Source of the DNA: Magnetococcales bacterium
GTDB lineage: Bacteria; Pseudomonadota; Magnetococcia; Magnetococcales; JADFWU01
Length of the DNA: 64,000 nucleotides
Assembly: GCA_015234045.1 (NCBI GenBank)
Contig: JADFWU010000011.1
Span: forward strand, 17,428 to 81,427
Direction: 5' to 3'
Part shown: positions 1 through 38,519 of the stretch, one piece after another
Position numbering within the stretch: the stretch's first letter is position 1
How the letters are laid out: every line of letters begins with the position of its first letter
Made by a program: the position numbers and the translations under genes
The notes under the pieces: generated by a model
The model's input: the letters and a program-made list of their open reading frames with translations, nothing else
What the model was told of the DNA's origin: nothing
Database searches by the model: none

Positions 1-2549
1 TCAGCAGCGATTCCCACCGAATCACTCAGCGTGTTGGCCAATCTTCGCGTAGCTGTACCCAACTCAGTGGCTGCCTGTTGAATCGATTCACCACTCATCT
101 GAATCGCACCATGGAGACTGGCATTGTCAGTGCTCAACCGTTTTTGTGAGGCATGTAATGCCTCAGCATTCTGCATGCTGTTGTTGAGCATCGCCGATGC
201 GGAGTGGCTCATATCGTCCATCTGTTGGGAGAGTCGATCAACCAACCTGCCCATACGATCCTCAAAGTTGCCGGACGTTGACTGTGTACCGCTGGAGGCT
301 CTGCTGACATCTTTCATCAGGTCGGGAATCACTGACAGATGCCGCCCCATCGACTCCTGGGAGGATTTCATACTTTCAATGGATGAGTGCAAAGTCGAAA
401 ACGCCTGCAACATCTGATCGGTCATCTGTTGTGAGGCGTGATTGATGCCCTCAAGCATACGATCATTATTCGTAGTCAACTGTGACAGCGTTCTGCTCTG
501 ACTGTCTCCTTTGTTATCTGCCGCCAACTGTCCAGACAACTGGGTCATGAATCCATCAAACTTGGTCTCCATACGGGTATGGAAACTGTGTAATCCTTCC
601 GTAAGCTGATGGACCTGATTGGCAATATCGGGCGTTGAGACCCCCAATTGACGCATCTCCGCCAATATCGACCGAACACTCTCGGATAGCGCACTCATCA
701 CCGTATGGGAGTGCTGTACCTGATCGTTGAACCGGCTGCTGAACTGTCCCATGGTATCAGAGACAGAATCAGCCACAGAGGGGGTGTTATCGCTTTTCTT
801 CATCTGTGCCAACATGGCGCTCATGCTGTCCGCCATGTCGCTGATGGCAATGCGCGTCTGCGCCATCTGATCACTGATCTGACTGCCCAGATCCTGCATA
901 CCCGTTGTTGCCGCTGTCGATTCTGCACCTGAACTGCTCGCTGCTGTGGTCATGGTACCAACAGCCTGCATCAGTTTTTCGGCGGTTTGGCTCAGCCCAT
1001 TGGCAGCGTGTGTCATCTGTTCACCAGCGCTGCTGACCACCTGGCCCAACGCCTTGGTATCGGTTCCAATCTGGGACTGAGAGTTTTGTAGGGATTGAAT
1101 GAACTGTTCGGATTGATCGAGCGCCTGGAGGTTGCCTGCCTTGCTCTGCTGCATCTGCTCCACCATGTCATCCATGGCGATCATATTGTCGCCAAACAGG
1201 GCATGGAACTGTTCAAAACGCTCTACCAGTTTCTCAGTGGAGACCAATATCTGCGGCGTGGTATTGAGTAGTAAAATCAGTTCGTCATGACCACTCTTCA
1301 TTCCAGATACCACACCAGCCAAATCGGTTACCGACTGTTCTAAGCGGTCTCCCAGATCCGATGTCGATTTCTTGAACTGCTCTGATATGGATTGGGTACT
1401 GGCTGCAAGCCTGTCCCGATCCTGTTGCACCATGTCACTCAGTTGCTTCTGAGTGGTCTCCTGAGCGGTTTGCCAGGAGGCAGTAATCGTATTGGTCTGC
1501 CGCTTGAGTGTTTCATTGATGCTGGTCAATGACTCGCCAAAGGTGGATAAGTGCTTACCAATGACACTCTCAGCTGATGCCTCTTTGGCTGCTGGAACCA
1601 CAACAGCAGCGGTGTTCTCAATAGAACCCGCAGGTGCCAAAAGCTGAACCGCCTGTACCATCTGATCAATGGATTGTTGAAATCGGCCCTGACCAAGATA
1701 ACTGTTTTTCGCTTCAGATACGGACAACGCAATGGTGCTATTGAAGATTTTCATTTGATTGGTCTGCTGGCGAAGCTCTTTAAACAGCCTTTCCTGGTTC
1801 TTACTGATGTCGGAGAGCGCCGTCTCCTCAGCAGGCTTGAGATCCAATCGACCAGTTAAGTTTAAAACAAAGCGACGAATCTGAAAGGAGACCCCATACA
1901 GCCGTCGTTTCTCCAAAAGCGAAAAAATGATCGACATGCTGATGCCGCAGATGGAGGTAAGAAATGCCAGTGAGGCACCTCCCATAAGGTCTCCCAGAGC
2001 AGCGCGCATCTCTTCCGGACCAGCATTCATACCTTTTTGGGCCAGATGAATACCCGCAACCAGACCGATAAAGGTTCCCAAAATGCCCAAACCGGTCAGC
2101 AGGTTGGGTATTGAGTTGTAGAGCCGGATGTTGAGATGGTTGTAGAGCAGACTGCGATCATGGAAAAAATAACCAGGATCAGCAGTAGTCGTAATCGGTT
2201 TGGGTTTTTCCGGCGGGGTATAGTTGAGATTATTGACGAATGTCTTCCAAGGCCCCTTCAGAATTGTCAACCTGGAATCAGCCAAATCCCTGTTAAACAC
2301 ATCCCAATTGATCGCAAACAGATACTTTCTGCGGATTTCGTGATCATCCGCATCTATTTCTGACCAATCATGCTCCTCTGGCAGATTTTCGGTGCGTCTC
2401 AACAGGCGCAGCCCACCGTTAATATGCCGAAGAACCTTGTTTGTCCTAAGATAGAGCGACAGAAGTGTAGCAAAAAAAACCGCACTGATAATCAGGCAGA
2501 AAATCGCGACCCCTGTCATACTGGAAAAAAAATGCGCAAAGGCGGTCAA
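1..2549 (-). CDS. ZorA-like MotA/TolQ/ExbB proton-channel protein, C-terminal end outside window
   Basis: The reading frame is open from a TTG start at 2549 to the left window edge, giving at least 849 residues. The start is supported by AGGAGAGTCCG directly before it; no ATG near the N-terminus fits better. Membrane segments are predicted at about residues 11-33, 148-170 and 186-212. The second holds the sequence LTGLGILGTFIGL, typical of the MotA/TolQ/ExbB channel core. Everything after about residue 240 is a Gln/Ser/Met-rich, heptad-like region with no other domain visible, resembling the tails of ZorA proteins. By family knowledge such proteins form pentameric inner-membrane stators that use ion flow to move a partner. 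The partner (an OmpA/MotB-like protein) would be expected further left and is not in the window. It lies 63 bp downstream of the Hpt-like gene and in line with the mam operon. Identification as the channel superfamily is solid; the role is unknown. Confidence 0.8.
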   Translation of the reverse strand, partial: MTAFAHFFSSMTGVAIFCLIISAVFFATLLSLYLRTNKVLRHINGGLRLLRRTENLPEEHDWSEIDADDHEIRRKYLFAINWDVFNRDLADSRLTILKGPWKTFVNNLNYTPPEKPKPITTTADPGYFFHDRSLLYNHLNIRLYNSIPNLLTGLGILGTFIGLVAGIHLAQKGMNAGPEEMRAALGDLMGGASLAFLTSICGISMSIIFSLLEKRRLYGVSFQIRRFVLNLTGRLDLKPAEETALSDISKNQERLFKELRQQTNQMKIFNSTIALSVSEAKNSYLGQGRFQQSIDQMVQAVQLLAPAGSIENTAAVVVPAAKEASAESVIGKHLSTFGESLTSINETLKRQTNTITASWQTAQETTQKQLSDMVQQDRDRLAASTQSISEQFKKSTSDLGDRLEQSVTDLAGVVSGMKSGHDELILLLNTTPQILVSTEKLVERFEQFHALFGDNMIAMDDMVEQMQQSKAGNLQALDQSEQFIQSLQNSQSQIGTDTKALGQVVSSAGEQMTHAANGLSQTAEKLMQAVGTMTTAASSSGAESTAATTGMQDLGSQISDQMAQTRIAISDMADSMSAMLAQMKKSDNTPSVADSVSDTMGQFSSRFNDQVQHSHTVMSALSESVRSILAEMRQLGVSTPDIANQVHQLTEGLHSFHTRMETKFDGFMTQLSGQLAADNKGDSQSRTLSQLTTNNDRMLEGINHASQQMTDQMLQAFSTLHSSIESMKSSQESMGRHLSVIPDLMKDVSRASSGTQSTSGNFEDRMGRLVDRLSQQMDDMSHSASAMLNNSMQNAEALHASQKRLSTDNASLHGAIQMSGESIQQAATELGTATRRLANTLSDSVGIAA

Positions 2550-2612
2550 CGGACTCTCCTATGTATTCCATTCCTGTCGGCAAGAATCGCCAGGAAATTG
2601 TTTTGCAACTAT

Positions 2613-5549
2613 CTACAAATATTTCAGCATGGCCCTTACACGGGTTGAGGATAAATCCCGAATGGTCAGGATACCATCCTCTTGTATACGCAACACATGG
2701 CTGAAGGAGAACCACTTGTCACTCACGACAATGAAAGCCTGCCAAAACTCAGGCGGAATACGGGCTGTACCATCGGACCGGAACCAATACATATAGCCCT
2801 GGCCTGATTCGGTCTGAAAAAACAGCCGCACATCGGCGATATTATCCGCTGTCAAAGTAAATGTCGTGCCTGCAGCGGAAAAAGTTCTGTCAATAAAGGC
2901 GCTGATATCGACAATAAGGTTATTTTTTTCATCTGTGCGAATAGCAACGATTGGCGTTGGCCCATCTGAGTCACTCAAGCGATAAGGAACGCGCCAAAGG
3001 CGGTTATAGTGTTTGAATTGATTGTTATAGGTCGCCAATATTTCTTCAGGCGTTTTCTTTGCTTCAGCAAACTGATCCGTACTCTGCGCTTCGGGATCAC
3101 TGCCCCCGGTTTGCCTATCGGTAAGAAAGGATTCTGTTCGCTGCACATCACCCCGTAATTCGGTCTGCTCTGCCGTGTCTATCAGGGCAATCCTATCATC
3201 CACATGTTCCTGTTCAACCTGTACAGTTTGAGGTGCTGCATTTTCAGCAGAAAGTTGCAAAGCCGTAGCAGCATCCCCTGATCCTGAAGCGTGCTCCGAC
3301 GCAAAACCTGGTTCTTGAAGCTGTTCATAGGGCGCGACAAGAGTTGACTCTCCGGCGGTCAGCGTTGAGGATTCATCGGCAAATATCGCCTCAACTTCCG
3401 CTGGCGTCTGTCCCATTGATGCTTCAATAGCTGACTGAAGATCATCCGCCACCGCTTGGCTGTCAACTATCGACTGAGTGTCATTAACAGCGGCATCAGT
3501 TACATCAACTGAGAGATCATCATCTGGAGACAACAGGGCAACCTGAGGCTGCTCCGAGTCAGGTTCAGTATCCGCCGAAGGCTTTTGTATCGCCTTGTTA
3601 TTGGACGGTTTCTGAACTACGGCATCAACCTGCTTGGCAGTGATACCTGATTTGGATACGGCAGGTCTGTTTTTACCCACTGCATCAGGCGTGTTGAGCA
3701 CAACCAGCGGCTCAGTGCTTTGCCCTCGGTCAATGAAATTGCTGATCGTATCACCATAAAACCAGATCAGGCCCACCAGTCCTGCTGCAATCGCACCGAA
3801 GGAGAACCATCCCACCATATTTCGTTTTGGACGGTATTCTTCATCGTAGAGACTCTCAGGCTCAGCCGCACGCTCATCCTGTTCCATCTCCTGTTCAGGC
3901 ACATTCCACATTTCCGCCGACGGATATAACTCTTCGACATGCCTGTCATCCAGTGACAGATGCTTGTCCAACAGCGGATAGGTCAGTTCCGATGAAACAA
4001 GGATATAGATGCGATCATCCGGGTATGACGACCAGTCCAGCTGCGCCAAACCTTCAGGTCGGGTATCCATGATGGCTGCAACCGGATCAAGCAGCTCACA
4101 CACATAGTTGTAGTGCACTTTCCGATTGATGGGATCGTTTGGCAGGATAATCTCAATGGAGAAAAACTGCAGATCACGCGCAGCAGCATTCTGAACTGTA
4201 CCAGGATAGTTGCTCAGATCAAAGATCTGCCTTGCCGCCCCTGTTTCTGATCTGCTGGACGCCCCCTCATCAGGCTTCTGACGGAATTGAGAGTCCTGTT
4301 CATCTTCAACGGGTTGTAGGATGTTTTCAATGCCTGCCACTGATCGCTGAACATCGAACGTATTAATCGAGCCTACATTGCCAAACAACGCAATAAGATC
4401 GTCAAACCCACCCTGTAGTGCGGATACCACTTTTAAATTCAATGGAATCGACTTATCTACTACAGAATCAATCAGTTGTTCCATTACCAGAGAGAGGCTG
4501 AGCGCATTGACAAGGTTAAAATGTTCGGAAGAGCCCCGTACAGCGCGCACCTGTTGGAGAATAAGATTGAACTCAATCAAATTCAGCGGCGCTTCAACCT
4601 CTACCTGATCCAGATGGGTGCGTCCACGCTCCAAATGTTTCAGTGCTTCCAATGTCACCTGATAAAGTTGTTTTCCGTCATTCTCATCCTCATTTTGGTC
4701 AGAGACGTCCATGGCAGGAACATCATCTGGTGGCGTTTGCACCTCAGATAAAGTCTCCTGCATCTCTTCCGTAACCGGGATGGCAACGATCCACGCATCC
4801 GGCAGTTGTGACAACGATACCAACAACTCTTTCTGAAGCAGTGAAGTAAACAGCAGATGAATCGGCGCATCCGAATCAGTGTCAAGCGTCAACCCTTCCT
4901 CAATGGGAGGAGTGGTATCAACGATGGTACCCACCGACATCAGGATATCGATCAAATCCCTCAGCGACTCGAACTGTTCCTCTCCTAAAATGGAGGGATG
5001 GATTGCAATGGCGTAGATCGCCCGATTCTGCTGCACAGCCCGTGCGACTATTTCTGGATAATGGCTCAGATCAAAAGGGATAGATCCAGTACTGGCTGCA
5101 CTATAAGCGGGTGGAGCATCATCCACTTCTGGAGACTCGACAGCGGAAAGAGCAGTCATAGCATCCTGCACATCAATGCTATCACTCACTGAAACATCCT
5201 CAAACAACTGCTGCAATGCTTCAAAGCCGATCAGCAGGCGATCAATCAATGATTGTGAAAAAATCAGTTGATCGTTTTCGACCTGCTCAAGCAACCGCTC
5301 CATCATGCGGGTCACACGAACGATATTGGTAAAATTAAAGAGCTCCGCAGAACCACGAATACTACGAACGCCGTGCAGCAATGGATGAATCGAACTGATA
5401 TCAACCTCATCCTCTTGGGGCACAACGAATTGCAGGCGTTGCAGGCAGTTGTCCAAAGAAGCGGTTGCCTCTTTGATAAAGAAGTCCAACTGCGTTGAGG
5501 TGGATTTTGAGACAAAACTATTTCTTTTTACGTCATCTGTTATAGACAT
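2613..5549 (-). CDS. Membrane protein with two degenerate Hpt-like domains
   Basis: About 978 residues. I chose ATG at 5549 because AAGGTGG sits 8 nt upstream; a TTG 27 nt earlier has no such site. Two CheA-like helical segments contain RSIRGSAELF (near residue 62) and RAVRGSSEHF (near residue 340). In true Hpt domains this place reads H-x-[ILV]-K-G-[SA]; here the phosphorylatable His is Arg in both copies. Each is followed by a segment like the inter-Hpt regions of large CheA/ChpA proteins (YPE/YPG, then a DP/LL-type strand). One membrane helix around residue 590-610 separates this cytoplasmic half from an acidic linker and a unique C-terminal domain of about 130 residues that should be periplasmic or intraluminal. 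It has no kinase or receiver part. It may be a phosphorylation-dead scaffold coupling the neighbouring receiver and STAS proteins to the ZorA-like channel; that is inference. Confidence 0.7.
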   Translation of the reverse strand: MSITDDVKRNSFVSKSTSTQLDFFIKEATASLDNCLQRLQFVVPQEDEVDISSIHPLLHGVRSIRGSAELFNFTNIVRVTRMMERLLEQVENDQLIFSQSLIDRLLIGFEALQQLFEDVSVSDSIDVQDAMTALSAVESPEVDDAPPAYSAASTGSIPFDLSHYPEIVARAVQQNRAIYAIAIHPSILGEEQFESLRDLIDILMSVGTIVDTTPPIEEGLTLDTDSDAPIHLLFTSLLQKELLVSLSQLPDAWIVAIPVTEEMQETLSEVQTPPDDVPAMDVSDQNEDENDGKQLYQVTLEALKHLERGRTHLDQVEVEAPLNLIEFNLILQQVRAVRGSSEHFNLVNALSLSLVMEQLIDSVVDKSIPLNLKVVSALQGGFDDLIALFGNVGSINTFDVQRSVAGIENILQPVEDEQDSQFRQKPDEGASSRSETGAARQIFDLSNYPGTVQNAAARDLQFFSIEIILPNDPINRKVHYNYVCELLDPVAAIMDTRPEGLAQLDWSSYPDDRIYILVSSELTYPLLDKHLSLDDRHVEELYPSAEMWNVPEQEMEQDERAAEPESLYDEEYRPKRNMVGWFSFGAIAAGLVGLIWFYGDTISNFIDRGQSTEPLVVLNTPDAVGKNRPAVSKSGITAKQVDAVVQKPSNNKAIQKPSADTEPDSEQPQVALLSPDDDLSVDVTDAAVNDTQSIVDSQAVADDLQSAIEASMGQTPAEVEAIFADESSTLTAGESTLVAPYEQLQEPGFASEHASGSGDAATALQLSAENAAPQTVQVEQEHVDDRIALIDTAEQTELRGDVQRTESFLTDRQTGGSDPEAQSTDQFAEAKKTPEEILATYNNQFKHYNRLWRVPYRLSDSDGPTPIVAIRTDEKNNLIVDISAFIDRTFSAAGTTFTLTADNIADVRLFFQTESGQGYMYWFRSDGTARIPPEFWQAFIVVSDKWFSFSHVLRIQEDGILTIRDLSSTRVRAMLKYL

Positions 5550-5620
5550 AATCAAATCCACCTTGAAAAACGTCAACGACTCCCCGATGATGACGACCTG
5601 AAATCATTCTTATATGAACA

Positions 5621-6562
5621 TCAGGAAAAATCGAGAAGCCGGCCTAATTTCACTTTTGCAAAAAGTTGTCTTACTCTACTGTTACTGTTAATGACTTTGA
5701 TGCGGCTCTTGTCGGTTCCATTGTGTCGAACCAACATCAGAATCGTCCCCAGTTCAGGCCGCTCAAGATGCTGAAGATTGGCAAAATCAAGTAAATAGTG
5801 CGTGTTTTCAGGACGATGCCGGTAAGCTGCAATGAACGCTTCACGACAGCTGGCATCAAACACCCCATTTACCCGAATGACAACCTGATCCTGCCCATCA
5901 TCGCGCTTCTCTTCTTCAACTTGAACTGTAATATTGGTATCAGTCAGCGTTTCGTAGTGCATATCCAGCTTAACAGCCGTCTGATCAATATGACTGTCTT
6001 GCACGGCTGTCTGTATTGCATTGTTGAAATTTACCAGTTTAATATCGCTTTTTTTTCCTTTGTTATGATCCGCCATCATCAACAACATACCGATACCTGA
6101 GGGGGTAATATCGGTTGCATTATGGAAGTCCAATAGATATTTAGTACCGGGTTTGTTGTTTCGATAGGCATCAACAAAATCGATCAGACAGTTCGCGTTG
6201 ACATGCCCTTTAAAATTGATTTTTATTCCATCTTCAAGGGGATGTATGTACTCAATACCGTTATTGATATGATAGGCGATACCTTTAAGCACGCTCTCTT
6301 TTTCCATGGAAATCACCGCAATACCATGGTTTTCCACACGTACTACCTTGGCCTTTTCCTGAATAAGAATATCGTCATGTTCCAACCGCAACAGCCCCTC
6401 CGCACCCTCATCCACCAAGCACGGTTTCTCCAAAATGATGAAAATGGAGTTGATACTGATCTCCTGGGCAATGCCGACACACCAGTTGAATTTGACTGGC
6501 ACACCACAATAATGGCGCTCCATTAATCGTGGTGCTATTGAAGATGTGGAGGTGGTGGTCAT
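5621..6562 (-). CDS. Tandem STAS-domain protein (anti-sigma antagonist-like)
   Basis: 313 residues; start ATG has AAGGAACC upstream. The first 105 residues form a beta-rich domain of PilZ-like appearance, although the RxxxR and D/NxSxxG motifs of c-di-GMP binders are not evident. Two STAS domains follow, at about 108-200 and 215-313. The first keeps the serine of the conserved loop (DITPSGIGMLL), the site phosphorylated in SpoIIAA-type proteins. The second has RPELG at the same place and so lacks it. By family knowledge STAS proteins act as phospho-switches that sequester partner kinases or anti-sigma factors; no such kinase is visible here. The gene sits between a receiver gene (20 bp gap) and the Hpt-like membrane protein, in line with the mam operon, which suggests a signalling role for that unit. 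Confidence 0.75.
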   Translation of the reverse strand: MTTTSTSSIAPRLMERHYCGVPVKFNWCVGIAQEISINSIFIILEKPCLVDEGAEGLLRLEHDDILIQEKAKVVRVENHGIAVISMEKESVLKGIAYHINNGIEYIHPLEDGIKINFKGHVNANCLIDFVDAYRNNKPGTKYLLDFHNATDITPSGIGMLLMMADHNKGKKSDIKLVNFNNAIQTAVQDSHIDQTAVKLDMHYETLTDTNITVQVEEEKRDDGQDQVVIRVNGVFDASCREAFIAAYRHRPENTHYLLDFANLQHLERPELGTILMLVRHNGTDKSRIKVINSNSRVRQLFAKVKLGRLLDFS

Positions 6563-6582
6563 AATGATGGTTCCTTTATCTG

Positions 6583-6990
6583 TTACCCTTCATCCTCTTC
6601 AACCAATCCATGTTCCAACAACTTATCCAGAAGCATCTGCCTGGTAATCGGCTTGGTCAGATAGTCAGCAGCACCGCCTTTGAAAAAGGACTGCATTGCC
6701 TGAATGGATGAATCCATTCCAGTCACCATGATGATCATGCACGGCTTTTGATCTGGTGCCAGCTCACTCTCAATGGCACGCATCCGCTGAACTGCCTTCT
6801 GGCCATCCATAACCGGCATGACGATATCCATTAGGACCAGATCGTAGGGTTCACCATCTTCCAGGTCGGCTTCAAACAGCTCCAACGCTGCTTTGCCATC
6901 ATTAACCATGTCACAGTCTGCATACGGTCGCAGAATATCGCGCAACAGTTTACGGTTGTTGAAATTATCGTCAGCAATCAAGACCTTCAT
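6583..6990 (-). CDS. CheY-like single-domain response regulator
   Basis: 135 residues consisting only of a receiver domain. The acidic pocket (ADD near residues 6-8), the phospho-acceptor Asp in LVLMDIVMP, the conserved Thr in VTG and the Lys in LTKPIT are all present, so it should be phosphorylatable. The start is marked by an excellent ribosome site, GGAGG, 6 nt before ATG. There is no output domain, so it must act by binding another protein. The adjoining STAS protein, Hpt-like membrane protein and channel are the obvious partners. No histidine kinase is encoded nearby on this strand. Confidence 0.92.
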   Translation of the reverse strand: MKVLIADDNFNNRKLLRDILRPYADCDMVNDGKAALELFEADLEDGEPYDLVLMDIVMPVMDGQKAVQRMRAIESELAPDQKPCMIIMVTGMDSSIQAMQSFFKGGAADYLTKPITRQMLLDKLLEHGLVEEDEG

Positions 6991-7076: not shown

Positions 7077-7661
7077 TTAAGTATTGCTACCCTGCCCCTT
7101 CTTTGCACTCTTCTGCTTCTCTTCAAGGCTTTCAATCGAGTGAGATAATCCATAAGCTATAAAGAACGGAATTTTATAAGCACGATGTCCGACCCTGATC
7201 AACAGGGATCCACGGCAGCTCTCCTGTTTCCAAATGACTTTGTACAGAATGAATTTTCCAGGTTCTGCTGAAAAAGTGATTTTGACCCGCCGCGCAATCT
7301 GGCTGCCAAATTCTACGCCCCGGTTTTTTCCCAACTCTTTCTGAATAAAGCCTTCAAGAATCGGCCACCAATTCGCCTTGGAAAGCTTGGAGGTCTGTTC
7401 CGTCTGCCCCAACCGCAACTGCACCGTTGCCGTTCTGGCAAACTCATGCTCGCTGATCAGGGTATTACTACCAAAACGGTTGTCCAGCGGCACCTCTTCT
7501 GTGGACAAGACGATCGGTGGCTCAGGATGAATGGTCTCCCGAATAAACTCAATAGAGGGCGCCTTGCTTGACTTATCATGGATAAATCGCTTGTGGAAAA
7601 GCTTCTTTCCAACAAATATCCCGGTAAGTGCCGCAACGCCAAATGTCACAAATGGAAGCAT
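7077..7661 (-). CDS. Membrane-anchored protein of unknown function, downstream of mamT
   Basis: 194 residues; ATG preceded by AGGGGC. An N-terminal membrane helix spans about residues 4-20, followed by a basic stretch (KKLFHKRFIHDKSSK), so the rest is probably cytoplasmic. The body is a mixed alpha/beta domain with a 'GVEFGSQIARRVKITFSAEPGKF' style beta region (about 110-150), which I do not recognise as a named family. It follows the coiled-coil gene at 7759-8622 in the same direction and precedes the receiver gene, so co-expression with the magnetosome operon is likely. No catalytic motif or heme-binding motif is visible. It is unlike MamU, which is a diacylglycerol-kinase-type protein and follows mamT in Magnetospirillum. 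Confidence 0.6.
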   Translation of the reverse strand: MLPFVTFGVAALTGIFVGKKLFHKRFIHDKSSKAPSIEFIRETIHPEPPIVLSTEEVPLDNRFGSNTLISEHEFARTATVQLRLGQTEQTSKLSKANWWPILEGFIQKELGKNRGVEFGSQIARRVKITFSAEPGKFILYKVIWKQESCRGSLLIRVGHRAYKIPFFIAYGLSHSIESLEEKQKSAKKGQGSNT

Positions 7662-7758: not shown

Positions 7759-8622
7759 TCAACCTGTTCCATCTTTTTGGATTCTCTCGTTATATACCGA
7801 CACCATCTGTTCCAAAATTTGAGGTAGATCAGCACTTAAGCGGAAGATCATGTCGTGAGCCTGGATCATATTGTCCAGGTTGCCCTTGAAAATTTCACCA
7901 ATCTTCTGGAACGGCACGGCAATGATCTTCAACTCCTGATGGGTCTTATCAAAGGACTTCTCAAAGTCCTTTATTTCAGTACCGATATTGACCAAGGTTT
8001 CATAGATCATCTGGTCGCTGGGTGGCTCTTCTGTATCAAGCAGTGCGCTCAACCGACTGATAGAGGTGGTTTTCAACTTCTCAGCCGCCAACCCTTCCTC
8101 TTCGATTGTCTTGATCAGCGGTTCCAGGTAGATCACCAGGCGCGGATCAATCCGTTTTTTTAACTCTTCAATCAGAGTACTTTGATCAGAGGACATTTTG
8201 ACCAGAACATCAGCCGGAATGGCATCACCACTTCCGGTAACAGCAGCTATGCCATCGTCTTCACCCGTTATCGGCTCAGCATTACCGGTCAGACGCGTGT
8301 GCATGATCGCGGTCAGTTTTTCAATATTCTTCAGACGCGCATCCAGTGCCTGAACGGTAGCATCCCCGCTGCTGCCAGCCAGTGCCCCACCCGCACCTAT
8401 GGCCGGAGATTTGCCTGTCTGATCAACCATGGTACCAGATGAGGCGGAGATTTGTTGAGCAATCCGCTCCATACGATCAAGTTTTGCGTCCAATTCCTGA
8501 AAACGCTGAGTCGAGGCCACATGCAATTCGACAATCTTGCCAATCAATCCCTCCATCACATTAATTCTGTTTTGGAAAGATGCTTCGCAGAATCCTTCTT
8601 GAATTCCTTTTTTCAGAGCCAT
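7759..8622 (-). CDS. Coiled-coil protein of unknown function, directly after mamT
   Basis: 287 residues; ATG with GGGAGAG upstream, 18 bp after the mamT stop. There is no signal peptide or membrane helix. A helical segment at about 18-60 with heptad spacing is followed by a Gly/Ala/Ser linker (about 63-95). A second long helical region then runs to the end and is rich in KLK/EEL/LEK heptads. I recognise no domain. The composition suggests an oligomeric cytoplasmic scaffold. Its position right behind mamT, with normal operon spacing, argues for a magnetosome-linked role, perhaps bridging the magnetosome genes and the signalling genes further downstream; this is inference only. Confidence 0.6.
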   Translation of the reverse strand: MALKKGIQEGFCEASFQNRINVMEGLIGKIVELHVASTQRFQELDAKLDRMERIAQQISASSGTMVDQTGKSPAIGAGGALAGSSGDATVQALDARLKNIEKLTAIMHTRLTGNAEPITGEDDGIAAVTGSGDAIPADVLVKMSSDQSTLIEELKKRIDPRLVIYLEPLIKTIEEEGLAAEKLKTTSISRLSALLDTEEPPSDQMIYETLVNIGTEIKDFEKSFDKTHQELKIIAVPFQKIGEIFKGNLDNMIQAHDMIFRLSADLPQILEQMVSVYNERIQKDGTG

Positions 8623-8640: not shown

Positions 8641-9147
8641 CTATTTGGTTTGAACCTGCACCAAAACATCATGACATTTGATACAGCGCCCTGATGCCGG
8701 ATGAGGCCGTGCTGAATCCGGCAGAATAGGCGGGCCAAATTTGGTAATCTCTTTTGACGCCCTCTCCCAGACTTTGGCAACCGGTGTTGCTGGTTGACTA
8801 CCGGCTGGAGCACCGCCTCGAATCAGATGACATTTGGTGCACGGCCCCCAATAGGGATGCGGCATTTTGGCACCCGGATTGATGCGCGGAATGCGTTTGA
8901 TCAACACCTTCGTCAACCGTCGTGGCTTAATGGCATCCTGAATCGGTGCCTGCAACGACGGTTGGGTCGGCTTGGGCAGTATCCCCAGAATTTCACCCCG
9001 CATTTGACGGCTCGGTCCACCCAATCCCAAACTATCTATGGACTTCTTTAAAGTCCCTTCGCTCATCAGTAACAGTCCGATTACGATAATCAGGGCAATC
9101 AGGCCCAACAAGGGCCAAATAGGGGGTCTGCCTTGGGGGTCATCCAT
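8641..9147 (-). CDS. mamT: MamT, magnetosome membrane protein with two magnetochrome heme motifs
   Basis: 168 residues. An N-terminal membrane helix spans about 11-29. Two magnetochrome motifs follow: HPYWGPCTKCH (CxxCH at 103-107) and HPASGRCIKCH (155-159), each with the His-Pro a few residues before the Cys pair that is characteristic of MamE/P/T/X. The heme part should sit in the periplasm or magnetosome lumen. By family knowledge MamT is a c-type cytochrome thought to tune the Fe(II)/Fe(III) balance during magnetite growth. The start lies 6 bp after the mamS stop, as in the canonical mamB-mamS-mamT order. Length matches other MamT proteins. Confidence 0.93.
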   Translation of the reverse strand: MDDPQGRPPIWPLLGLIALIIVIGLLLMSEGTLKKSIDSLGLGGPSRQMRGEILGILPKPTQPSLQAPIQDAIKPRRLTKVLIKRIPRINPGAKMPHPYWGPCTKCHLIRGGAPAGSQPATPVAKVWERASKEITKFGPPILPDSARPHPASGRCIKCHDVLVQVQTK

Positions 9148-17107: not shown

Positions 17108-18148
17108 TCAGCTACCGGTGACCTGTCCAACCTGTTCCCAATACTCTGGTGGCAACTCAGAGGCCAGTTTCAAGGCGCCGGCACTACCTGAATAATCAGG
17201 ATCTGCAACACACTGAACCAGCACTTCGCCATACTCTTTCATCTGGTTCATGATCATCTCTTCAATACCTTTGATGGCAGCGCCACCTCCGGTCAGATAG
17301 ATATTTTTCAGTGCTTCGCTCTGGTCTTCCGGATCAAACACCATGATCAATGTTTGCAGGTGTTCAACAATCTCAGCCACAATGGTTTCACAGGCCACAC
17401 GAAGCTCTTCGGTGATATCGCTCTTGACCGGTTTACCATCAATACGCAGCTCAAGTTCGATCACCTCTTCGGCTTCACCGACAAAAGCGTAATCTTCCTT
17501 GATTTTACGTGCCAGATGCTTGGTAAACTGAACATTGGGATATTTATCAATGATCAGGTTTTTCAGAACAAAATCTATATAGTTGCCCGCCTTGAGCACA
17601 GTCACCTGCTCTTCCATACCGGGAATAATACCCTTCATGGCACAGATGTCCGTGGTGCCGGCACCAATATCAATAATAATAGCATTGTTCAGCTTGCCGA
17701 TCTGGTAGGCGACCATGAACGGCTCGGAAACTACCATGGAGAGTGACATCAACTCACCGGTGATCTTCAGCAACTGGTTTTTATTGAACAGTGAGGCGCG
17801 CGCAGGCACACCGACAACGCCGCAAATACGGTCGCCCGGCTGTGGGTTGGCCTCATTGATCATATTTTTGATCAATAGTTTGGCTGCTTCAGCAGCCTGA
17901 TCATTGGCTTCCTTGAGAACCCCATCCTCCAAAGGATAATGGAGATCCAGATAGGATTGCCGCTGTAGCGCCTCTTCACCGATGACATGAGAACGTCCCA
18001 TCAGTTTCACACCGATGATATCCTTGGGATAACCAACCACCGAGTGGGTCACTGCCTTGGTGCCCCGACTGGACATCATCATGGTGCGGGAGGTCCCCAG
18101 GTCGATGCCAAGGAGAAGGGTATTGTTTGGGTGGCTCATATTCTTCAT
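17108..18148 (-). CDS. mamK: MamK, actin-like magnetosome filament protein
   Basis: 346 residues. Actin/Hsp70-fold nucleotide motifs are clear: phosphate 1 GIDLGTSRT near residue 14, phosphate 2 IIDIGAGTTD near 163, and the adenosine motif LTGGGAAIKG near 287. The start ATG has GGAG 9 nt upstream. By family knowledge MamK forms cytoplasmic filaments that align magnetosomes and position the chain at division, with MamJ as linker in Magnetospirillum. Its upstream neighbour here is a repetitive MamJ-like protein, which keeps the mamJ-mamK arrangement. Length is normal. Confidence 0.96.
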   Translation of the reverse strand: MKNMSHPNNTLLLGIDLGTSRTMMMSSRGTKAVTHSVVGYPKDIIGVKLMGRSHVIGEEALQRQSYLDLHYPLEDGVLKEANDQAAEAAKLLIKNMINEANPQPGDRICGVVGVPARASLFNKNQLLKITGELMSLSMVVSEPFMVAYQIGKLNNAIIIDIGAGTTDICAMKGIIPGMEEQVTVLKAGNYIDFVLKNLIIDKYPNVQFTKHLARKIKEDYAFVGEAEEVIELELRIDGKPVKSDITEELRVACETIVAEIVEHLQTLIMVFDPEDQSEALKNIYLTGGGAAIKGIEEMIMNQMKEYGEVLVQCVADPDYSGSAGALKLASELPPEYWEQVGQVTGS

Positions 18149-18226: not shown

Positions 18227-20125
18227 CTATTCTTGTTCGTCCGATTTTCCTGACGATCTAAAGGATCGAAAGATAGCGCTGGTTACGGAAACTATAGGCA
18301 TGGTAATCACACCGATTGAACCTATAGCGATATTGCCACTGCCCTTGATAATTTCACCAGCACCATGAACAACCTCTTCAGCGCCACTCACAAGACGGCC
18401 TGCCATCTTTCCAGTACCGCTCTCGTTCGGTTCAGTCGGCTGTTCTACGGATTTCTTGCCGGACTCACCACCCATAAGAGAGCTGCCTACATTCACAACA
18501 CCGCCGACCATATCGCCCAGGGCGTTGTAAATTCCTCGTCCAAGTGACTCGACAACAACATCCACTGAACCATCTGGATTCACCCGGCGGGTTAAACTGG
18601 CCGGACGGCTTCCCCCAGGTCCTGAACCAGCCTCTCCTGGCATTTCATACTCTTCACCTTGAAGATGCTTGAGAAAGGCTTCCTGAACCTCAATCTGTTG
18701 GGCAGAACGGTAAGGCTCCGGCTCCATATCGCGATAGGCCATCCCATGAACACGCAGTTCTGGTGGAATCAGACCAAACGGCTTCTCTTCAACTACCTGT
18801 TCATCGTCGGTCGTCGCCACATCTTCCGTTCCTGGTTTTTGTACATCAGCTGCCGCAGCTGCCGCAGGTGCCGCTGCCGCAGGTGCTGCTGCCACAGGTG
18901 CCGCTGCCGCAGTTGCCGATCTTTCCACTTTGGGAGGGGCACCACTGAGTTTCTGATCAAGAAAGCTTTGGAACTTGGCTTCCGATTCGCTCAGTGTTCT
19001 TGGCTCGGCAACCTTGGGTTTTTCCACATCTTTTGGTTGCATATCTTTCCTTGCGACCTCTTGTTTCCCCTTTTGTTCAATCGACTTTCTGGCATCTTCA
19101 CGAATCGCCTGCAAAATACGCTCTTTTTCAGCCTGTTCAACAATTGATGCCTCCGAACCCTGCTGAGCTGTAGCTGGCATACCAGCCTTCTTGCCGACTT
19201 TAGGGGGCACGCGTCTGGGCTTGGGCCTTTTGGTCTTCACCTTGGGTATAACTGGTTTTTCAAATGGCTTTTTGCCTCTACCATTAGCGCCACGTTGGCC
19301 GAACCTCTGGGCCTCTTTCGAGCCGTTTGTACTTTTGGTCTCAGCAGAACCGAATGGTTTCGACTTTGGAAATGGCTTGGACTCAGCACCTTTGGCTTCA
19401 CCAGGCGCGTCATCATCAAACTCAATACCAAACGGTTTTGATTTTGGCAGTTTTTTCGCCGTCGTTTTTGGTAGCGGCTTGGGTAACGTTCTCTTGGCTG
19501 CAATATCCAGTTTTTTGTCCTCAGGCTTATCGTCACCACTGGGCTTTGATGCTGCAAAGAGCTTCGCACCTGGTGTTAATTCGCCCTTGCCTACCTCTGC
19601 CTTATCAGTCTTGATCTCTTTTTCATCAGAAGGTCTGGATTTCTTGCCTCTTTTGCCACCCTTCGACGGCCAAGTCGATTTAGCAGCTTTGGCATCCTTC
19701 TTCTTTTCAGCAGTGGAACTGTCCACCTTGTTGTCATCCTTTGCCTTCTGTTCAGCAGATCCAGCAGACTTTTCATCCTTCTTATCGGTAGGTTTATCTG
19801 CTTTATCCGCTTTTTTGTCGTCTGCCTTTACAGTATCGGTGGACTCAGAAGAGTCCTTTGTAGCCACTGGAGGCTGTAATGCATCAAGCAGTTTTTTCTC
19901 TGCTTCTGATTGTTGTTCAATATTTTTTTTGGAAGTTCTACTCTTTTTTCCCATAGCCTTATCCTCTAAAGACGAGACCTTATCCTCTAAAGACGAGACC
20001 TTATCATTCGGCGTTTGTTTTCCTTCAGGTATAGAAGGATCACCTCCTTGTGACCAACCAGATTGTGCGCCATCCACGGTTTGGGGTGCTGTTTTACCCG
20101 CTTCATCTTTCCAAGATCTGGTCAT
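18227..20125 (-). CDS. Repetitive low-complexity protein in the mamJ position
   Basis: 632 residues; ATG has GGGAG 6 nt upstream. Most of the protein is Lys/Ala/Pro/Ser/Glu-rich and probably disordered. It has a duplicated SSLEDKV unit near residue 45, several KSKPFG motifs (about 230-290) and an Ala/Pro run (about 415-445). The last 150 residues are different: Gly-rich with a short hydrophobic patch IAIGSIGVITMPIVSV, then a basic end, which could contact the membrane. It lies between mamE and mamK, exactly where mamJ sits in Magnetospirillum. MamJ is also low-complexity with a hydrophobic C-terminus and tethers magnetosomes to MamK, but MamJ is strongly acidic while this one is mixed-charge. 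No sequence homology is claimed; same role is inference. Confidence 0.7.
   Translation of the reverse strand: MTRSWKDEAGKTAPQTVDGAQSGWSQGGDPSIPEGKQTPNDKVSSLEDKVSSLEDKAMGKKSRTSKKNIEQQSEAEKKLLDALQPPVATKDSSESTDTVKADDKKADKADKPTDKKDEKSAGSAEQKAKDDNKVDSSTAEKKKDAKAAKSTWPSKGGKRGKKSRPSDEKEIKTDKAEVGKGELTPGAKLFAASKPSGDDKPEDKKLDIAAKRTLPKPLPKTTAKKLPKSKPFGIEFDDDAPGEAKGAESKPFPKSKPFGSAETKSTNGSKEAQRFGQRGANGRGKKPFEKPVIPKVKTKRPKPRRVPPKVGKKAGMPATAQQGSEASIVEQAEKERILQAIREDARKSIEQKGKQEVARKDMQPKDVEKPKVAEPRTLSESEAKFQSFLDQKLSGAPPKVERSATAAAAPVAAAPAAAAPAAAAAADVQKPGTEDVATTDDEQVVEEKPFGLIPPELRVHGMAYRDMEPEPYRSAQQIEVQEAFLKHLQGEEYEMPGEAGSGPGGSRPASLTRRVNPDGSVDVVVESLGRGIYNALGDMVGGVVNVGSSLMGGESGKKSVEQPTEPNESGTGKMAGRLVSGAEEVVHGAGEIIKGSGNIAIGSIGVITMPIVSVTSAIFRSFRSSGKSDEQE
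19959..20000 (-). repeat. 21-bp tandem duplication inside the mamJ-like gene
   Basis: Two exact 21-bp copies, 19959-19979 and 19980-20000 (ttatcctctaaagacgagacc), encode the repeated SSLEDKV heptapeptide. The exact identity indicates a recent in-frame duplication in a low-complexity gene. Confidence 0.9.
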
Positions 20126-28558: not shown

Positions 28559-29389
28559 ATGGGTGCAAAACTAGATATCAATGTCGCTAGAATGATTCAC
28601 CTAAATTGGGAGTTGGATCTTGAAGCCTTGATTGAAAAACGACAGCCCATCGAAAACCTTACCTCCTATCAAGATTGCGACCTTGGACTGTGGCTTCATG
28701 GTGACGGGCTACACACCCTCGGCTCATTCAGTGCCATCCGACAGCTTGTCATGGTTCATAAACGCTTTCATGAAACTGTCGATAGCGTGGCAAAAATGAC
28801 GTCGGACCATGACAAACGTGAAGGACTCTCTGAAGTGCGTACCCTTAGCCGAGAGGTGATCTATCTACTGACTCAAGCTGAAATGGAATACCTCAATGCC
28901 CATGATCAAGGTATCGGTTTGAACCAGCCAATGTTCAAGCTCTGGGACCGTTTATTTGGCAGACGTGAAGAGAAAATGACCCAACAGGCAATGCTCGACG
29001 TCAGTCATGCCCGCCTACTCCATCTCAAATGGGTTCAAAGCATGCCCCAAGCTTTTCGCAATCATGGACACGGCATGAACCTGGATACTGCAGAACTCTG
29101 CTCTCTCGGCGTTTGGATTCATGCGGTTGGCCTTAAGAAATACGGTCAAATTCAAGAGATTAACCAGCTAGATGAGACCCACCAGGCATTTCACGAATAT
29201 ACCGCAAACACACTGACTGCCCTGCGCAATAAGCAGGATAGTGCAGCCACCCACACCTTCGCAGAGGTCCATCGTCTTAGCCGTGAAATCATCTACCTGC
29301 TGTCATTAGTAGAATATAAACTGCTTGATTCCAGCGCCGTCAAACGCACCAAAACGATTTTGCCGTTCTTTTGGAAAAAATCAGGTTAA
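28559..29389 (+). CDS. Protein made of two CZB (chemoreceptor zinc-binding) domains
   Basis: 276 residues; ATG with GAGG upstream. There is no receptor, kinase or cyclase part: the protein consists of two CZB domains, about 8-130 and 142-262. Each has the His-x5-8-W start (HLNWELDLEAL; HLKWVQSMPQAF), the Cys of the zinc site in CDLGLWLHG and CSLGVWIHA, and the closing HxxFH (HKRFHETV; HQAFHEYT). By family knowledge CZB domains sense zinc or oxidants such as hypochlorous acid through the Zn-Cys core and are normally fused to chemoreceptors or diguanylate cyclases. A free-standing tandem form probably acts in trans. It follows the DUF2202 gene by 83 bp, on the same strand. Confidence 0.88.
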   Translation: MGAKLDINVARMIHLNWELDLEALIEKRQPIENLTSYQDCDLGLWLHGDGLHTLGSFSAIRQLVMVHKRFHETVDSVAKMTSDHDKREGLSEVRTLSREVIYLLTQAEMEYLNAHDQGIGLNQPMFKLWDRLFGRREEKMTQQAMLDVSHARLLHLKWVQSMPQAFRNHGHGMNLDTAELCSLGVWIHAVGLKKYGQIQEINQLDETHQAFHEYTANTLTALRNKQDSAATHTFAEVHRLSREIIYLLSLVEYKLLDSSAVKRTKTILPFFWKKSG

Positions 29390-33665: not shown

Positions 33666-34422
33666 TCATTTTTGCTCGCTCTTACGTACCAAAGCCGAGA
33701 TTACTGGCATATAAAGAGGGTCGCGCAACTCCAAACCAATCCCACTATTTCCGTCTATACGGTTTACCACACATGCACGGGGCTTATCATCAGATAATGG
33801 CAGGAGATGAATAATGCCTTTATCATGAACTTTTATCCATTTTGGCAAGGGGGGGGGGGAAATCAATAAACAATCCTTGTTCTCCAGCATCATGAAGTAA
33901 TCCAGTAATTCCTTTCTTTCCTGAAAATTCTATCAACGCCCGCCCTTCAAGTCTGATTCTTGGTGCTCTTGAGTTTATTTCGTCAGGGTTTGATGCCATG
34001 TAACGCCGTGATTTTCTGTCAACGACCAAAATATGATTGCACAACCATTCTATAAGAACGTCGAACATTTTTTGCGCTATTTGACAGGCTTTTAAATGGT
34101 CGCTTACAAAGACTTTTTCACGCAATATTGCGCTGTCTTTTTGAAATCTTCGATGGGCGAGAATATGACTATTTAAATTCGGGTTTTTGTTTTTCCTCAT
34201 AAGAGCTTCTTCAAAACCAAGGTGTTCACTGACAAAGGCTTCAAGCTCTAAAACGCTCACTTCAATTTCGGTTTGGTTTGCTCCGCCTTGGATTTGCTCT
34301 AACATCCCGGTAGCTAGTCGAAACAGCTTCTCATGCTGTTGATCTATTGAACTTATCCCAAGCTTCAAATCTTGATCGAAATCTAACTTGGCACCGCCAT
34401 AGTCTATTGTCAGATGAGACAT
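33666..34422 (-). pseudogene. Hemerythrin-PilZ protein, frame interrupted at an 11-G run
   Basis: ATG 34422 has AAAGGAAAG upstream. Residues 5-140 form a bacteriohemerythrin domain with the di-iron ligand pattern (H in DQQHEKLF, HLGFEE, HILAHRRF, CNHILVVD). A PilZ domain follows, starting at RRYMASNPDE and continuing with a G-rich strand. At 33849-33859 a run of 11 G (C on the coding strand) shifts the frame so that translation stops 12 codons later. With 10 C the frame continues into PKWIKVHDKGI and a normal PilZ end at 33666. It may be a phase-variable gene, a real mutation or a sequencing error. Known hemerythrins bind O2; PilZ domains bind c-di-GMP, though the RxxxR motif is only partly visible (RKSRR). 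Confidence 0.75.
33849..33859. repeat. Mononucleotide run of 11 G
   Basis: The longest G run in the window, placed inside the hemerythrin-PilZ reading frame. One base less would restore a full-length protein of about 251 residues. Runs of this length are prone to slipped-strand changes in cells and to base-calling errors in sequencing. Confidence 0.9.
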
Positions 34423-34549
34423 AAGCTTTCCTTTGTTCAGAAACAAGGACATCAATCAGTCATAGTACCCCATCTGTATACTTCACTGCACAGACTTGAA
34501 TGATGAATCCCTCTCTAACGTATGCAACTGTAGATAGTCTGATGGCTAA

Positions 34550-35581: not shown

Positions 35582-38434
35582 TCACGTGGACCGTGTGAAT
35601 TCAATCAGCGCAACCGTTTTTTCGACCAAAATGCCAATCCGACCCAGCAGGGTTTGAGCTTCACCCCAATCACCCATTTCAGCCAATCCTCGTAACCGTA
35701 ATACCTGTGACGCCACCCGAGAGGCACCGATCTCTTTTGAGATTTTTCTCAAATCAGGCAGAATGGTCTCAACCGATTGAATTTTTTTATCATCAACTGC
35801 CGTTTGCAACTGCTCCACCAGTTTTGGCACCACCTTAATAAACAACTGTTTACGTGCGATCAACGTCTCATCATCGACATCGACGGACTTGAGCTTTATC
35901 GGCACCGCTGGTTTGTCTTTCTTATCTTTTTTATCCAACCTATAGGGCTCTATTAGGTTCAGCAGATCATTTACCTGATACGGCTTACTTAAATAACCGT
36001 CCATTCCAACCTCATGACACTTGTTTTCCTCCCCACGCAACAGGTTGGCAGTCACAGCTAAAATGGGAATATCCGGATTGATTCCGGAATCATGTGAGGC
36101 GTTTCGAATGCGACGGGTCGCCTCAAAGCCATCCATCTCCGGCATCTGTAAATCCATTAAAATCAGATCGTAGGTTGCATTCGGCAGCATCGATAGAGCC
36201 TCACCGCCATGATTGGCAATATCAACATGACAACCATTTTTCTTCAAAATCGACACAGCCAGCTTTTGATTATGTGGCAGATCTTCAACTAGCAAAATGT
36301 TCAGGGAGGCTTGTTTCACTTGTAGTTTGAGCGTTTTTTTGGCGGTCGACTCAGGCGCTTTATCAATCCGCTTGAGCAGTGCCGCTATCTTCTGTGTCAG
36401 ATAAAAACGTTTGATCGGTGTTTTGATTAATATAGCATCATTAGCCCACAGATGTTTACAATCGTGCGAGATTGAACGATTACTTGGAAGAAGGATGATA
36501 ACATGACCACGACTGCCTGAATGATGATTGCCCCCAGTCAGAACAGGCAGATCTACCTCCATGAATGATATATCCAGCAGGACAAGATCAAATGGGTTTT
36601 GGTCCCGAGCTGCTTGATCCAATGAGTCAACCAAACCTTGAGCATCGCAAGCCTCATGAATGGTCGCGCCAAAATAATCCAACGTTTTATGGACAATGGC
36701 ACGACCGGAATCATGGCCATCCGCTAAAAGAACCCGAACTTCCTTCAGCAAATTCGAATCTTTGAGAGTGCGACTGCGGAGGTTTTGTCCACTGTAAAAA
36801 ACACAAGACTCCTTTTTGCGCTCTCCCAGTTCAAACTGTGCCGTAAAATGGAATGTACTGCCCTTGTCTTTTTCACTATCAACCCAGATGTTACCATTCA
36901 TCATATTGACAAAGTGTTGACTAATAGTCAGTCCTAGCCCCGTACCGCCATATTTGCGTGAAATGGATCTGTCCTCCTGGGAAAAACTTTGAAAAATTTG
37001 GTCAATTTTATCTGCAGAGATGCCAATACCGGTGTCGGAAACAGATACCAATAAGCGAACAGAACTCGCTTTGACAAAGCGATCCAGTTTAACATGTAAA
37101 ACAATCTCACCTTGCTCGGTAAACTTGATTGCATTGTTGGTGAGATTGATCAGAATCTGTTTTAAACGTAAAGGGTCACCAACAAGATTGGTTGGAATGT
37201 CCCAGTCAATATCACAGTAGAGCGCTATCCCTTTCTGATTAGCATCGATTGCCAAAGTTTCGGCGATGTCTTCGATTTGACCAATCAGATCAAAATGGGC
37301 CTTCTCTAACTTCATCTGCCCAGACTCAATCTTGGACATATCCAGAATATTGTTGATGAGTTCCAGCAGAGTGTGTGAGGAGTTTTGAACAATCTTGATA
37401 TTGTCCAGCTCCTCTTCGCGGGTCAGATCTGTTGTCACGATCAAATCTGTCAACCCAATGATCGCATTGAGTGGGCTACGGATTTCATGACTCATATTGG
37501 CCAAAAACTCGCTTTTCGCCTTTGATGCTTGATCGGAGTATGCTCGTTTGATCAAGTTGGCGATGGTGATACCAACTGAAAACAGGTCGGATGCAAACAA
37601 CGATTCGCTCTCAAAATCGGCTTCAACTTTGAGTACCAGCAGTCCCATCTGTTCATCCAGATGGCCGAGCGGGACATAAAGTGCATTATTTGCAGAGCAC
37701 TTTTCGCAGGTCCCGTTTTTCTGATAAAGATTACTTTTCAGTTCCAACGTTTCCCGACAGGGACACACAATGGATGAATCCAGCTCGCAATGATGACATG
37801 CCTTCATTTGAGGCATGTTGTGCTCAGCCATCAGAATCAGCGTATCGTAACCTTTTTCCACACAGGTCAGAAAGATGGCCCCACTAGGCGGTGAGGAAAG
37901 ATGAGGCATTTCCAACAAATGCGTCAATACATTCTGAAGCTGTTTATCAAGCGGTGCGTCCTGTAATGAAATCACAAGTAAATTGTTGATCAATACATGA
38001 AAATGCAACGCACTGACAAAACTGGCTTGAACCTCATCCCGGTCATGGCAAGCAACACCGCTTTGATCTTTCAATTCGTCGATTGTCCATTGGGACTTTT
38101 GCTGCTGTTTTTTGTAAGATGTCACATCGGACAACTGATACAACCAATCCGACTGTGGATCACTCGCATCAATATGGGTGATGGATATCCGATACCACAT
38201 CCCCAAATCGGGCCATTCCAGCTCCATGATCCCAGGATCATCAAGGTTACAAAGCGGGCATTCCATCGGTGATGTGGATGGATTGTGAAATAGGTCATGA
38301 ACAGCCTGGCCTTCCAACATGTTCACCGATTGACCAACCAGCTCTCCCGCCTTTTGATTGCCGCGAACAATGGTTCCATTCCGGCGTACCTGCAAAACTG
38401 GTTCTGGCAGATTATTGAACAGTTGATCCAACAT
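35582..38434 (-). CDS. Hybrid sensor histidine kinase with PAS, GAF-like and two receiver domains
   Basis: 950 residues from ATG 38434, which has GGAGAG 3-4 nt upstream. Order: PAS (1-110, with a CPLC pair), a GAF-like domain (about 140-300) with Cys-rich loops ([14 protein letters not shown] and CEKCSANN), HisKA with [13 protein letters not shown] near 330, and HATPase_c with N, G1 (DTGIGI) and G2 (GTGLGL). A degenerate receiver follows ([17 protein letters not shown]), then a full receiver ([20 protein letters not shown]) and a helical C-terminal segment. There are no membrane helices, so it senses in the cytoplasm. The Cys clusters suggest a metal or redox input. Partner regulators are not adjacent. 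Confidence 0.93.
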
Positions 38435-38519
38435 TATCTCTCCAAAGTGGCTCTCAGCGAACCTCAATATTCAGAATTCTCAGCATACGAGGTGCATAAT
38501 ACCAGAACCATAGTGTCCG

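Follow-up and report, generated by a model that had tools for sequence, protein, structure and literature searches.

What does the gene of a Zorya-type rotary motor do at the end of a magnetosome operon? The question is raised by a 64,000-nucleotide stretch of a Magnetococcales bacterium, referred to here as the window, which corresponds to positions 17428–81427 of contig C20 in a 3.65 Mb draft genome (window positions are C20 positions minus 17427). An earlier note made from this DNA described, downstream of mamT and two orphan genes, a CheY-like receiver, a tandem-STAS protein, an Hpt-like membrane protein and a ZorA-like channel, and left open whether these form a motor linked to the magnetosome genes or part of a Zorya defence system that is simply adjacent. 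The answer that we favour is that a magnetosome island of the Magnetococcales took up a type I Zorya motor on a single occasion and turned it from defence to magnetosome service, a reading for which we judge the case to be evenly balanced.

A Zorya-type motor set inside the magnetosome island

All of these genes are found in the order described, on the minus strand and with short gaps. The series, which is cut by the window edge, consists of mamT, orf287, orf194, the receiver gene, the tandem-STAS gene, the degenerate-Hpt membrane gene, zorA, zorB and a zorC-like gene. The intergenic spacings from mamT to zorA are, in order, 18, 97, 86, 20, 44 and 63 bp; zorB follows zorA after 12 bp and overlaps the zorC-like gene by 4 bp. 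No terminator-like sites are present in the intergenic gaps, and the counts from a scan for terminators and sigma-70 promoters were not above those of shuffled sequence or chance. To the right of mamT lie mamS, mamB, mamQ, mamA, mamP, mamO, mamM, mamK, mamE and mamH. Beyond zorC, on the other strand, are mamZ and mamX (convergent), a MamI–YeiH fusion, a GTPase and MamD. Because mam genes stand on both sides (mamT/S/B and mamZ/X/I/D), the set lies inside the magnetosome island, and the suggested link of a ZorA-like channel to magnetosome genes is borne out.

ZorA has 1154 residues (C20:16512-19976, of which the first part occupies 1..2549 of the window). It matches the PADLOC model ZorA1 (PDLC00605) at 7e-54 and scores 169 bits against the NCBIfam model antiphage_ZorA_1, just short of the cut-off of 190. 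The protein consists of a MotA/TolQ/ExbB core with three transmembrane helices, as judged from hydropathy, followed by a very long coiled cytoplasmic tail, and in the alignment the ion-path Thr/Ser motifs of the core are conserved. Compared with the 446–874 residues of ZorA in canonical systems (two short fragments excluded), the proteins of the relatives are also long at 1177–1610 residues. If the tail is a continuous helix with a rise of 0.15 nm per residue, it would form a rod of roughly 130–200 nm.

The 3' part of zorA, zorB and the zorC-like gene are located to the left of the window and outside it. It is here that the OmpA/MotB-like partner predicted for the channel is found, directly after zorA: zorB (C20:15567-16499) encodes 310 residues with a transmembrane segment and an OmpA-type wall-binding domain (PADLOC ZorB1 2e-71, OmpA 3e-7). 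Residues Asp24, His197, Leu215, Arg219, Arg275 and Arg280 of ZorB are invariant in all 16 sequences. Their correspondence to the solved ZorB is based on profile alignment and residue spacing, and Zorya needs the equivalents of Asp24 and of the five others, which bind the wall, for attachment to the wall and for defence (PMC11890865). The core and long tail of ZorA and the transmembrane Asp and wall-binding residues of ZorB are thus those of type I Zorya. The ratio of nonsynonymous to synonymous substitutions is 0.04–0.19 for zorA, zorB and zorC, close to that of mamO (0.09–0.15). Since the ion-path and wall-binding residues are kept in the two proteins, assembly into an ion-driven motor of 5:2 stoichiometry is expected, and their sequences make it very probable that this motor is ion-driven and wall-anchored. 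It is predicted to sit in the inner membrane; ZorB would hold on to the peptidoglycan, and the ZorA rod would lie in the cytoplasm.

The zorC-like gene (C20:14227-15570, 447 residues) has been remodelled. Residues 1–311 constitute the N-terminal part of ZorC (PADLOC ZorC1 5e-45, covering 2–311 only) and are fused to a CheA-P1/Hpt-like domain at 317–446 (Pfam Hpt 6e-7 over 320–414). Matches to the PADLOC ZorC model end at 308–311 of about 460 positions. In 40 canonical ZorC sequences, the conserved residues past that point include Glu406, His409 and His446 (numbering of locus L095), which we take as the EH signature; this EH core of type I Zorya is lost in 15 of 15 ZorC proteins of the set. In its place the C-terminus is recognized as CheA P1 by profile and also by predicted structure, with template-modelling (TM) scores of 0.84 to PDB entry 1tqg and 0.79 to 1i5n, and it is a four-helix bundle of the Hpt/CheA P1 type.

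ZorD of type I Zorya is absent from the genome, and neither the set nor the adjoining genes include it or a nuclease. Full-length ZorD proteins are few in the order and are encoded on contigs other than that of the island, mostly beside canonical Zorya genes. The earlier note had named zorC and zorD genes to the left of the window as evidence that would refute its reading; half of this is seen, as the N-terminal part of ZorC is indeed there, in fused form, and zorD is not.

Distribution and descent of the set

The comparison sample consisted of 47 other genomes of the order. A full-length tandem-STAS gene is present in 17 of them, and these are exactly the 17 in which MamK is at least 70% identical to that of the window; of the others, 28 have a MamK of 50–63% identity only and two have none. 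A close ZorB (50–56% identity) is found in 15 of the 17, the misses being a fragmented genome (G034) and one that is 57% complete (G047). In a ZorB scan of 84,980 species, the top 14 matches are Magnetococcales when two genomes labelled as Thiotrichales are included, and the next identities are at most 40%. These two (KR_bin-4016, L089, and KR_bin-0880, L094) combine a MamK of 69% identity with a magnetosome-type ZorB and are probably mislabelled Magnetococcales. The idea that they break the link to magnetosomes was rejected on account of this MamK. The set thus lies in the mam clusters of other magnetotactic genomes, as the earlier note had wished to see examined, in 17 relatives and two mislabelled metagenome-assembled genomes, and magnetosome-type ZorB occurs only together with one type of mam cluster (18 of 18 entries).

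Three arrangements of the set are observed, all of them at the mam operon. It lies after mamT on the same strand in genomes G000, G016 and G039, upstream of mamH on the same strand in G003, G026 and G041, and divergent from mamH in G001, G006, G013, G021, G029, G038 and G046. The set is present in six families and is patchy down to the level of the genus: G012 has both the set and the cluster type, its congener G024 (RpoB 96% identical) neither. This patchy distribution implies that the whole island type was independently gained or lost a few times.

The distances of ZorB, ZorC, the receiver, the STAS protein and the Hpt-like protein correlate with those of MamO with r values of 0.91–0.94, compared with 0.90 for MamB versus MamO. 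With RpoB held constant, the partial correlations with MamO are 0.88–0.89 (n = 10–12; permutation p = 0.0005, the floor) and that of MamB is 0.82. Strains UR-1 (G041) and WMHbinv6 (G026) are 84% identical in rpoB DNA, 95.5% in the mam operon and 96.2% in the zor region. The island is therefore far closer than rpoB and the set moved with it in a recent transfer; recent transfer of the island had been inferred by Koziaeva et al. (PMC6783814). Between the same two genomes, the Hpt-like membrane gene has a synonymous distance of 0.002, against 0.03–0.5 for its neighbours, which points to a local recent exchange. By its conserved location and its joint inheritance with mam genes in different species, the set behaves as a component of the magnetosome cluster.

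A maximum-likelihood analysis of 93 ZorB sequences groups the 18 magnetosome-linked proteins in one clade (support 100/100) that is sister (97/86) to the type I Zorya ZorB of Thiohalocapsa, Vibrio and Shewanella, and Zorya from other Magnetococcales loci is placed elsewhere. The root of this tree is arbitrary, so that a capture of Zorya by the island is the most economical interpretation and no proof. The alternative raised by the earlier note, a Zorya defence system by mere adjacency, was rejected on account of the missing ZorD, the missing EH core and the separate tree position; the real Zorya systems of the relatives lie elsewhere and on another branch. We are confident that the set is part of the magnetosome island and no defence system.

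Signalling genes and the possible role of the motor

The receiver (6583..6990, 135 residues, Response_reg 8e-20) is a single-domain protein and the best-conserved signalling component, with 62–70% identity among relatives; the acidic pair, the phospho-Asp, the Thr and the Lys are all kept in the alignment. The tandem-STAS protein (5621..6562, 313 residues) matches STAS_2 at 5e-8 in two stretches and retains the Ser before Gly in the first STAS domain but not in the second. Its N-terminal domain has no Pfam match; a PilZ-like look was noticed by eye only and is not claimed. The membrane protein (2613..5576, 987 residues) contains two Hpt-like repeats, a single transmembrane segment at 588–606, a long linker that is proline-rich in most members and a folded C-terminal domain. 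This last domain is predicted with a mean local confidence (pLDDT) of 92.8, and a fold search with it gave no PDB match. Its description as an Hpt-like membrane protein is correct as regards the Hpt-like match (7e-4, below the Pfam cut-off) and the transmembrane segment. The usual phosphotransfer role that the description implies does not hold, as Arg occupies the phospho-His site in 18 of 18 members and the protein therefore cannot be a usual phosphotransfer protein. A conserved phospho-accepting His is lacking in the P1-like domain of ZorC as well.

In the 17 relatives, the gene that comes after orf194 and precedes that of the receiver encodes a kinase with the architecture PAS-HisKA-HATPase-receiver (domains scanned in three of them). 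The gene order in the window suggested that this kinase is absent here. This was rejected, as a likely counterpart, to judge by its sequence, is encoded on the same contig at a distance of 29 kb: the hybrid histidine kinase at 35582..38467 (minus strand, 961 residues) shares the architecture and is the best match in this genome to the kinase of the relatives, scoring 546 bits where the second-best match reaches 390. The zinc-binding CZB protein at 28559..29389 (plus strand, 276 residues, PF13682 3e-17) has a counterpart in G016 and G039 whose gene separates zorA from the Hpt-like gene; its identity to the G016 protein is 31% (2e-45).

These components suggest how the motor might be controlled. 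The P1-like domain of ZorC may dock onto the CheY-like receiver or onto the kinase. If it docks the receiver, the hybrid kinase, the receiver, the STAS protein and the degenerate-Hpt protein would switch the motor on and off or read its state, and control of the motor by the receiver appears somewhat probable. The mechanical output is less certain: the rod could hold or move magnetosomes relative to the cell wall, via MamK or via linkers of the maq1 type. Positioning or anchoring of magnetosomes is accordingly put forward tentatively. Chain positioning, coupling to the wall and magnetotaxis, the roles suggested in the earlier note, would all be compatible with these data. Genome G010, which is probably that of the chain-forming Magnetococcus marinus MC-1, is without the set. 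In UR-1, which carries it, the magnetosomes are clustered and not chained, and unknown island genes were suspected by the authors (PMC6783814).

Several points weigh against this proposal. The case for magnetosome positioning is built on the company that the genes keep and on a single phenotype, in two strains (UR-1 and the probable MC-1). The 17 relatives share a single origin of the set and do not represent independent events, and islands can carry unrelated passengers. Finally, the phospho-His position of the P1-like domain is His in only five of 15 ZorC proteins, including that of the window genome, and is Asn, Gln or Arg in the others, so that classical phosphotransfer is not the common mechanism. 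A phosphorelay via the Hpt domains is weakened by the same loss in most ZorC proteins and in all copies of the membrane protein.

The motor might instead serve magnetotaxis as a mechanical sensor, in which case the torque or load of the magnetosomes or strain on the wall would alter ZorAB and the P1-like domain would signal through the receiver to the flagella or to gene expression. The receiver, single-domain like CheY and the best-conserved part, fits this picture, as do the match of the P1-like domain to CheA P1 (including that in the CheA3-P1/CheY6 complex) and the CZB and PAS sensors that travel with the set; sensing of wall disturbance has been proposed for Zorya itself (PMC11890865). 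The set, however, comes without chemoreceptor, CheW or CheA catalytic domain, and with the phospho-His mostly lost from ZorC we consider a sensory role rather unlikely. Iron supply offers another outlet for such a motor, which could energize periplasmic or outer-membrane iron uptake for magnetite in the manner of Ton or Tol, with a TonB-like membrane protein as its periplasmic arm. The topology of the Hpt-like membrane protein (transmembrane segment, proline-rich spacer, folded end) would suit this, and FeoB, a metal-repressor/FeoA fusion and CDF transporters adjoin the set in several relatives, feoB being 30 kb away here. Yet ZorB has a wall-binding OmpA domain at its end, the features that are both new and conserved (tail and P1 domain) are cytoplasmic and the C-terminal domain of the membrane protein matches neither TonB nor any PDB fold, all of which makes this function improbable.

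An anti-phage function in a new form has also to be weighed, namely a subtype that guards or rides the magnetosome island with another effector in place of ZorD. It would account for the homology to ZorA, ZorB and ZorC; defence genes are frequent on mobile islands, and type II Zorya functions without ZorC and ZorD (PMC11890865). The absence of ZorD and of any nuclease in or beside the set, the loss of the EH core throughout, the confinement to one mam cluster type and the separate standing of the canonical Zorya systems of the order argue against it, and we hold it to be very doubtful. What we retain, as a possibility short of a likelihood, is an anti-phage rotary motor that has become an organelle machine: receiver-controlled, wall-anchored and ion-driven, with a rod of perhaps 130–200 nm that would place or clamp magnetosomes or register the magnetic torque on them.

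Known relatives, neighbouring genes and implications

Type I Zorya (ZorABCD) shares with the set the ZorA core and cytoplasmic tail, the Asp and wall residues of ZorB, the gene order A–B–C and the N-terminal part of ZorC. The set differs in being without ZorD, in a ZorC that has a CheA-P1-like end instead of the EH core, in a ZorA that is up to twice as long and in its constant location in one magnetosome-island type together with kinase, receiver, STAS and degenerate-Hpt genes. Like the flagellar stator MotAB and the gliding motor AglRQS, it is predicted to encode an ion-driven inner-membrane motor. In the stator, MotB is fixed to the wall; the gliding motor powers a machine in the cytoplasm. 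Unlike these, the motor is of Zorya type in sequence and has a tail of more than 600 residues; a separate pair of MotA- and OmpA-family genes is present in the same genome on contig C94. In the fold of its C-terminus, ZorC resembles the CheA P1 and Hpt domains and pseudo-Hpt proteins; it differs in the fusion to a Zorya adaptor, and it keeps the phospho-His only in the minority of cases given above.

Six loci from Vibrio and Ferrimonas (L099, L101, L102, L104, L106 and L107) contain tandem-motor, Zorya-like arrays with two ZorA, two ZorB, one ZorC-like protein and small unassigned genes, and look like an undescribed double-motor variant.

A link between such a motor and magnetosomes was not known to the earlier note as a described one. 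Three of the genes had been listed in 2019 in the islands of Ca. Magnetaquicoccus inordinatus UR-1, WMHbinv6 and WMHbin3 as EH-signature, MotB and apolipoprotein-like genes, and the genes after mamT in these islands were described as hypothetical and chemotaxis proteins (Koziaeva et al., PMC6783814). The locus is the same, but that listing covers three genomes only and the Zorya or motor identity went unrecognized, which leaves this part of the claim standing. In the literature searched, no paper mentioning both 'magnetosome' and 'Zorya' was found. New here are the recognition of the locus as Zorya, the truncation of the EH part and the P1-like fusion, the spread over six families, the match to one island type and the co-inheritance.

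The gene preceding the set, mamT (8641..9147, minus strand), encodes a magnetochrome protein (PF18509 6e-19) and is the last core mam gene before it. Orf287 (7759..8622, minus strand), of unassigned family, is conserved directly after mamT, and orf194 (7077..7661, minus strand), with a hydrophobic N-terminus and no Pfam match, is conserved with the set at 39–46% identity in relatives. Between mamE and mamK, at window positions 18227–20125, there is a counterpart of maq1, a gene thought to be specific to Magnetaquicoccaceae; maq1-related proteins occur at the same place in other families that have this island type. To the left of the window on contig C20, directly before mamX, the gene at L004:9498-11102 fuses a MamI-matching N-terminus (2.7e-17) to a YeiH-family transporter, and near the left end of the contig the gene at L004:4636-5709 has a masked stretch that is translated as X. 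A hemerythrin-domain protein with an additional C-terminal domain is encoded near the kinase gene (window 33823–34455). In WMHbinv6, beside feoB and the zor genes, the C-terminal domain of an iron-dependent repressor is fused to FeoA (L093:4399-5094).

For the organisms that carry it, the set provides a concrete gene list with point mutants that can be tested (Asp24 of ZorB and the Asp of the receiver). It bears on two open questions, namely how magnetosomes are arranged in magnetotactic cocci without MamJ and MamY, and whether magnetic torque is actively sensed. Matches to ZorA and ZorB that annotation tools label as defence may be something else. If the proposed role is true, a motor of phage defence would clearly have been co-opted for cell organization, and a bacterial organelle would be served by a powered cytomotive system other than a cytoskeletal filament.

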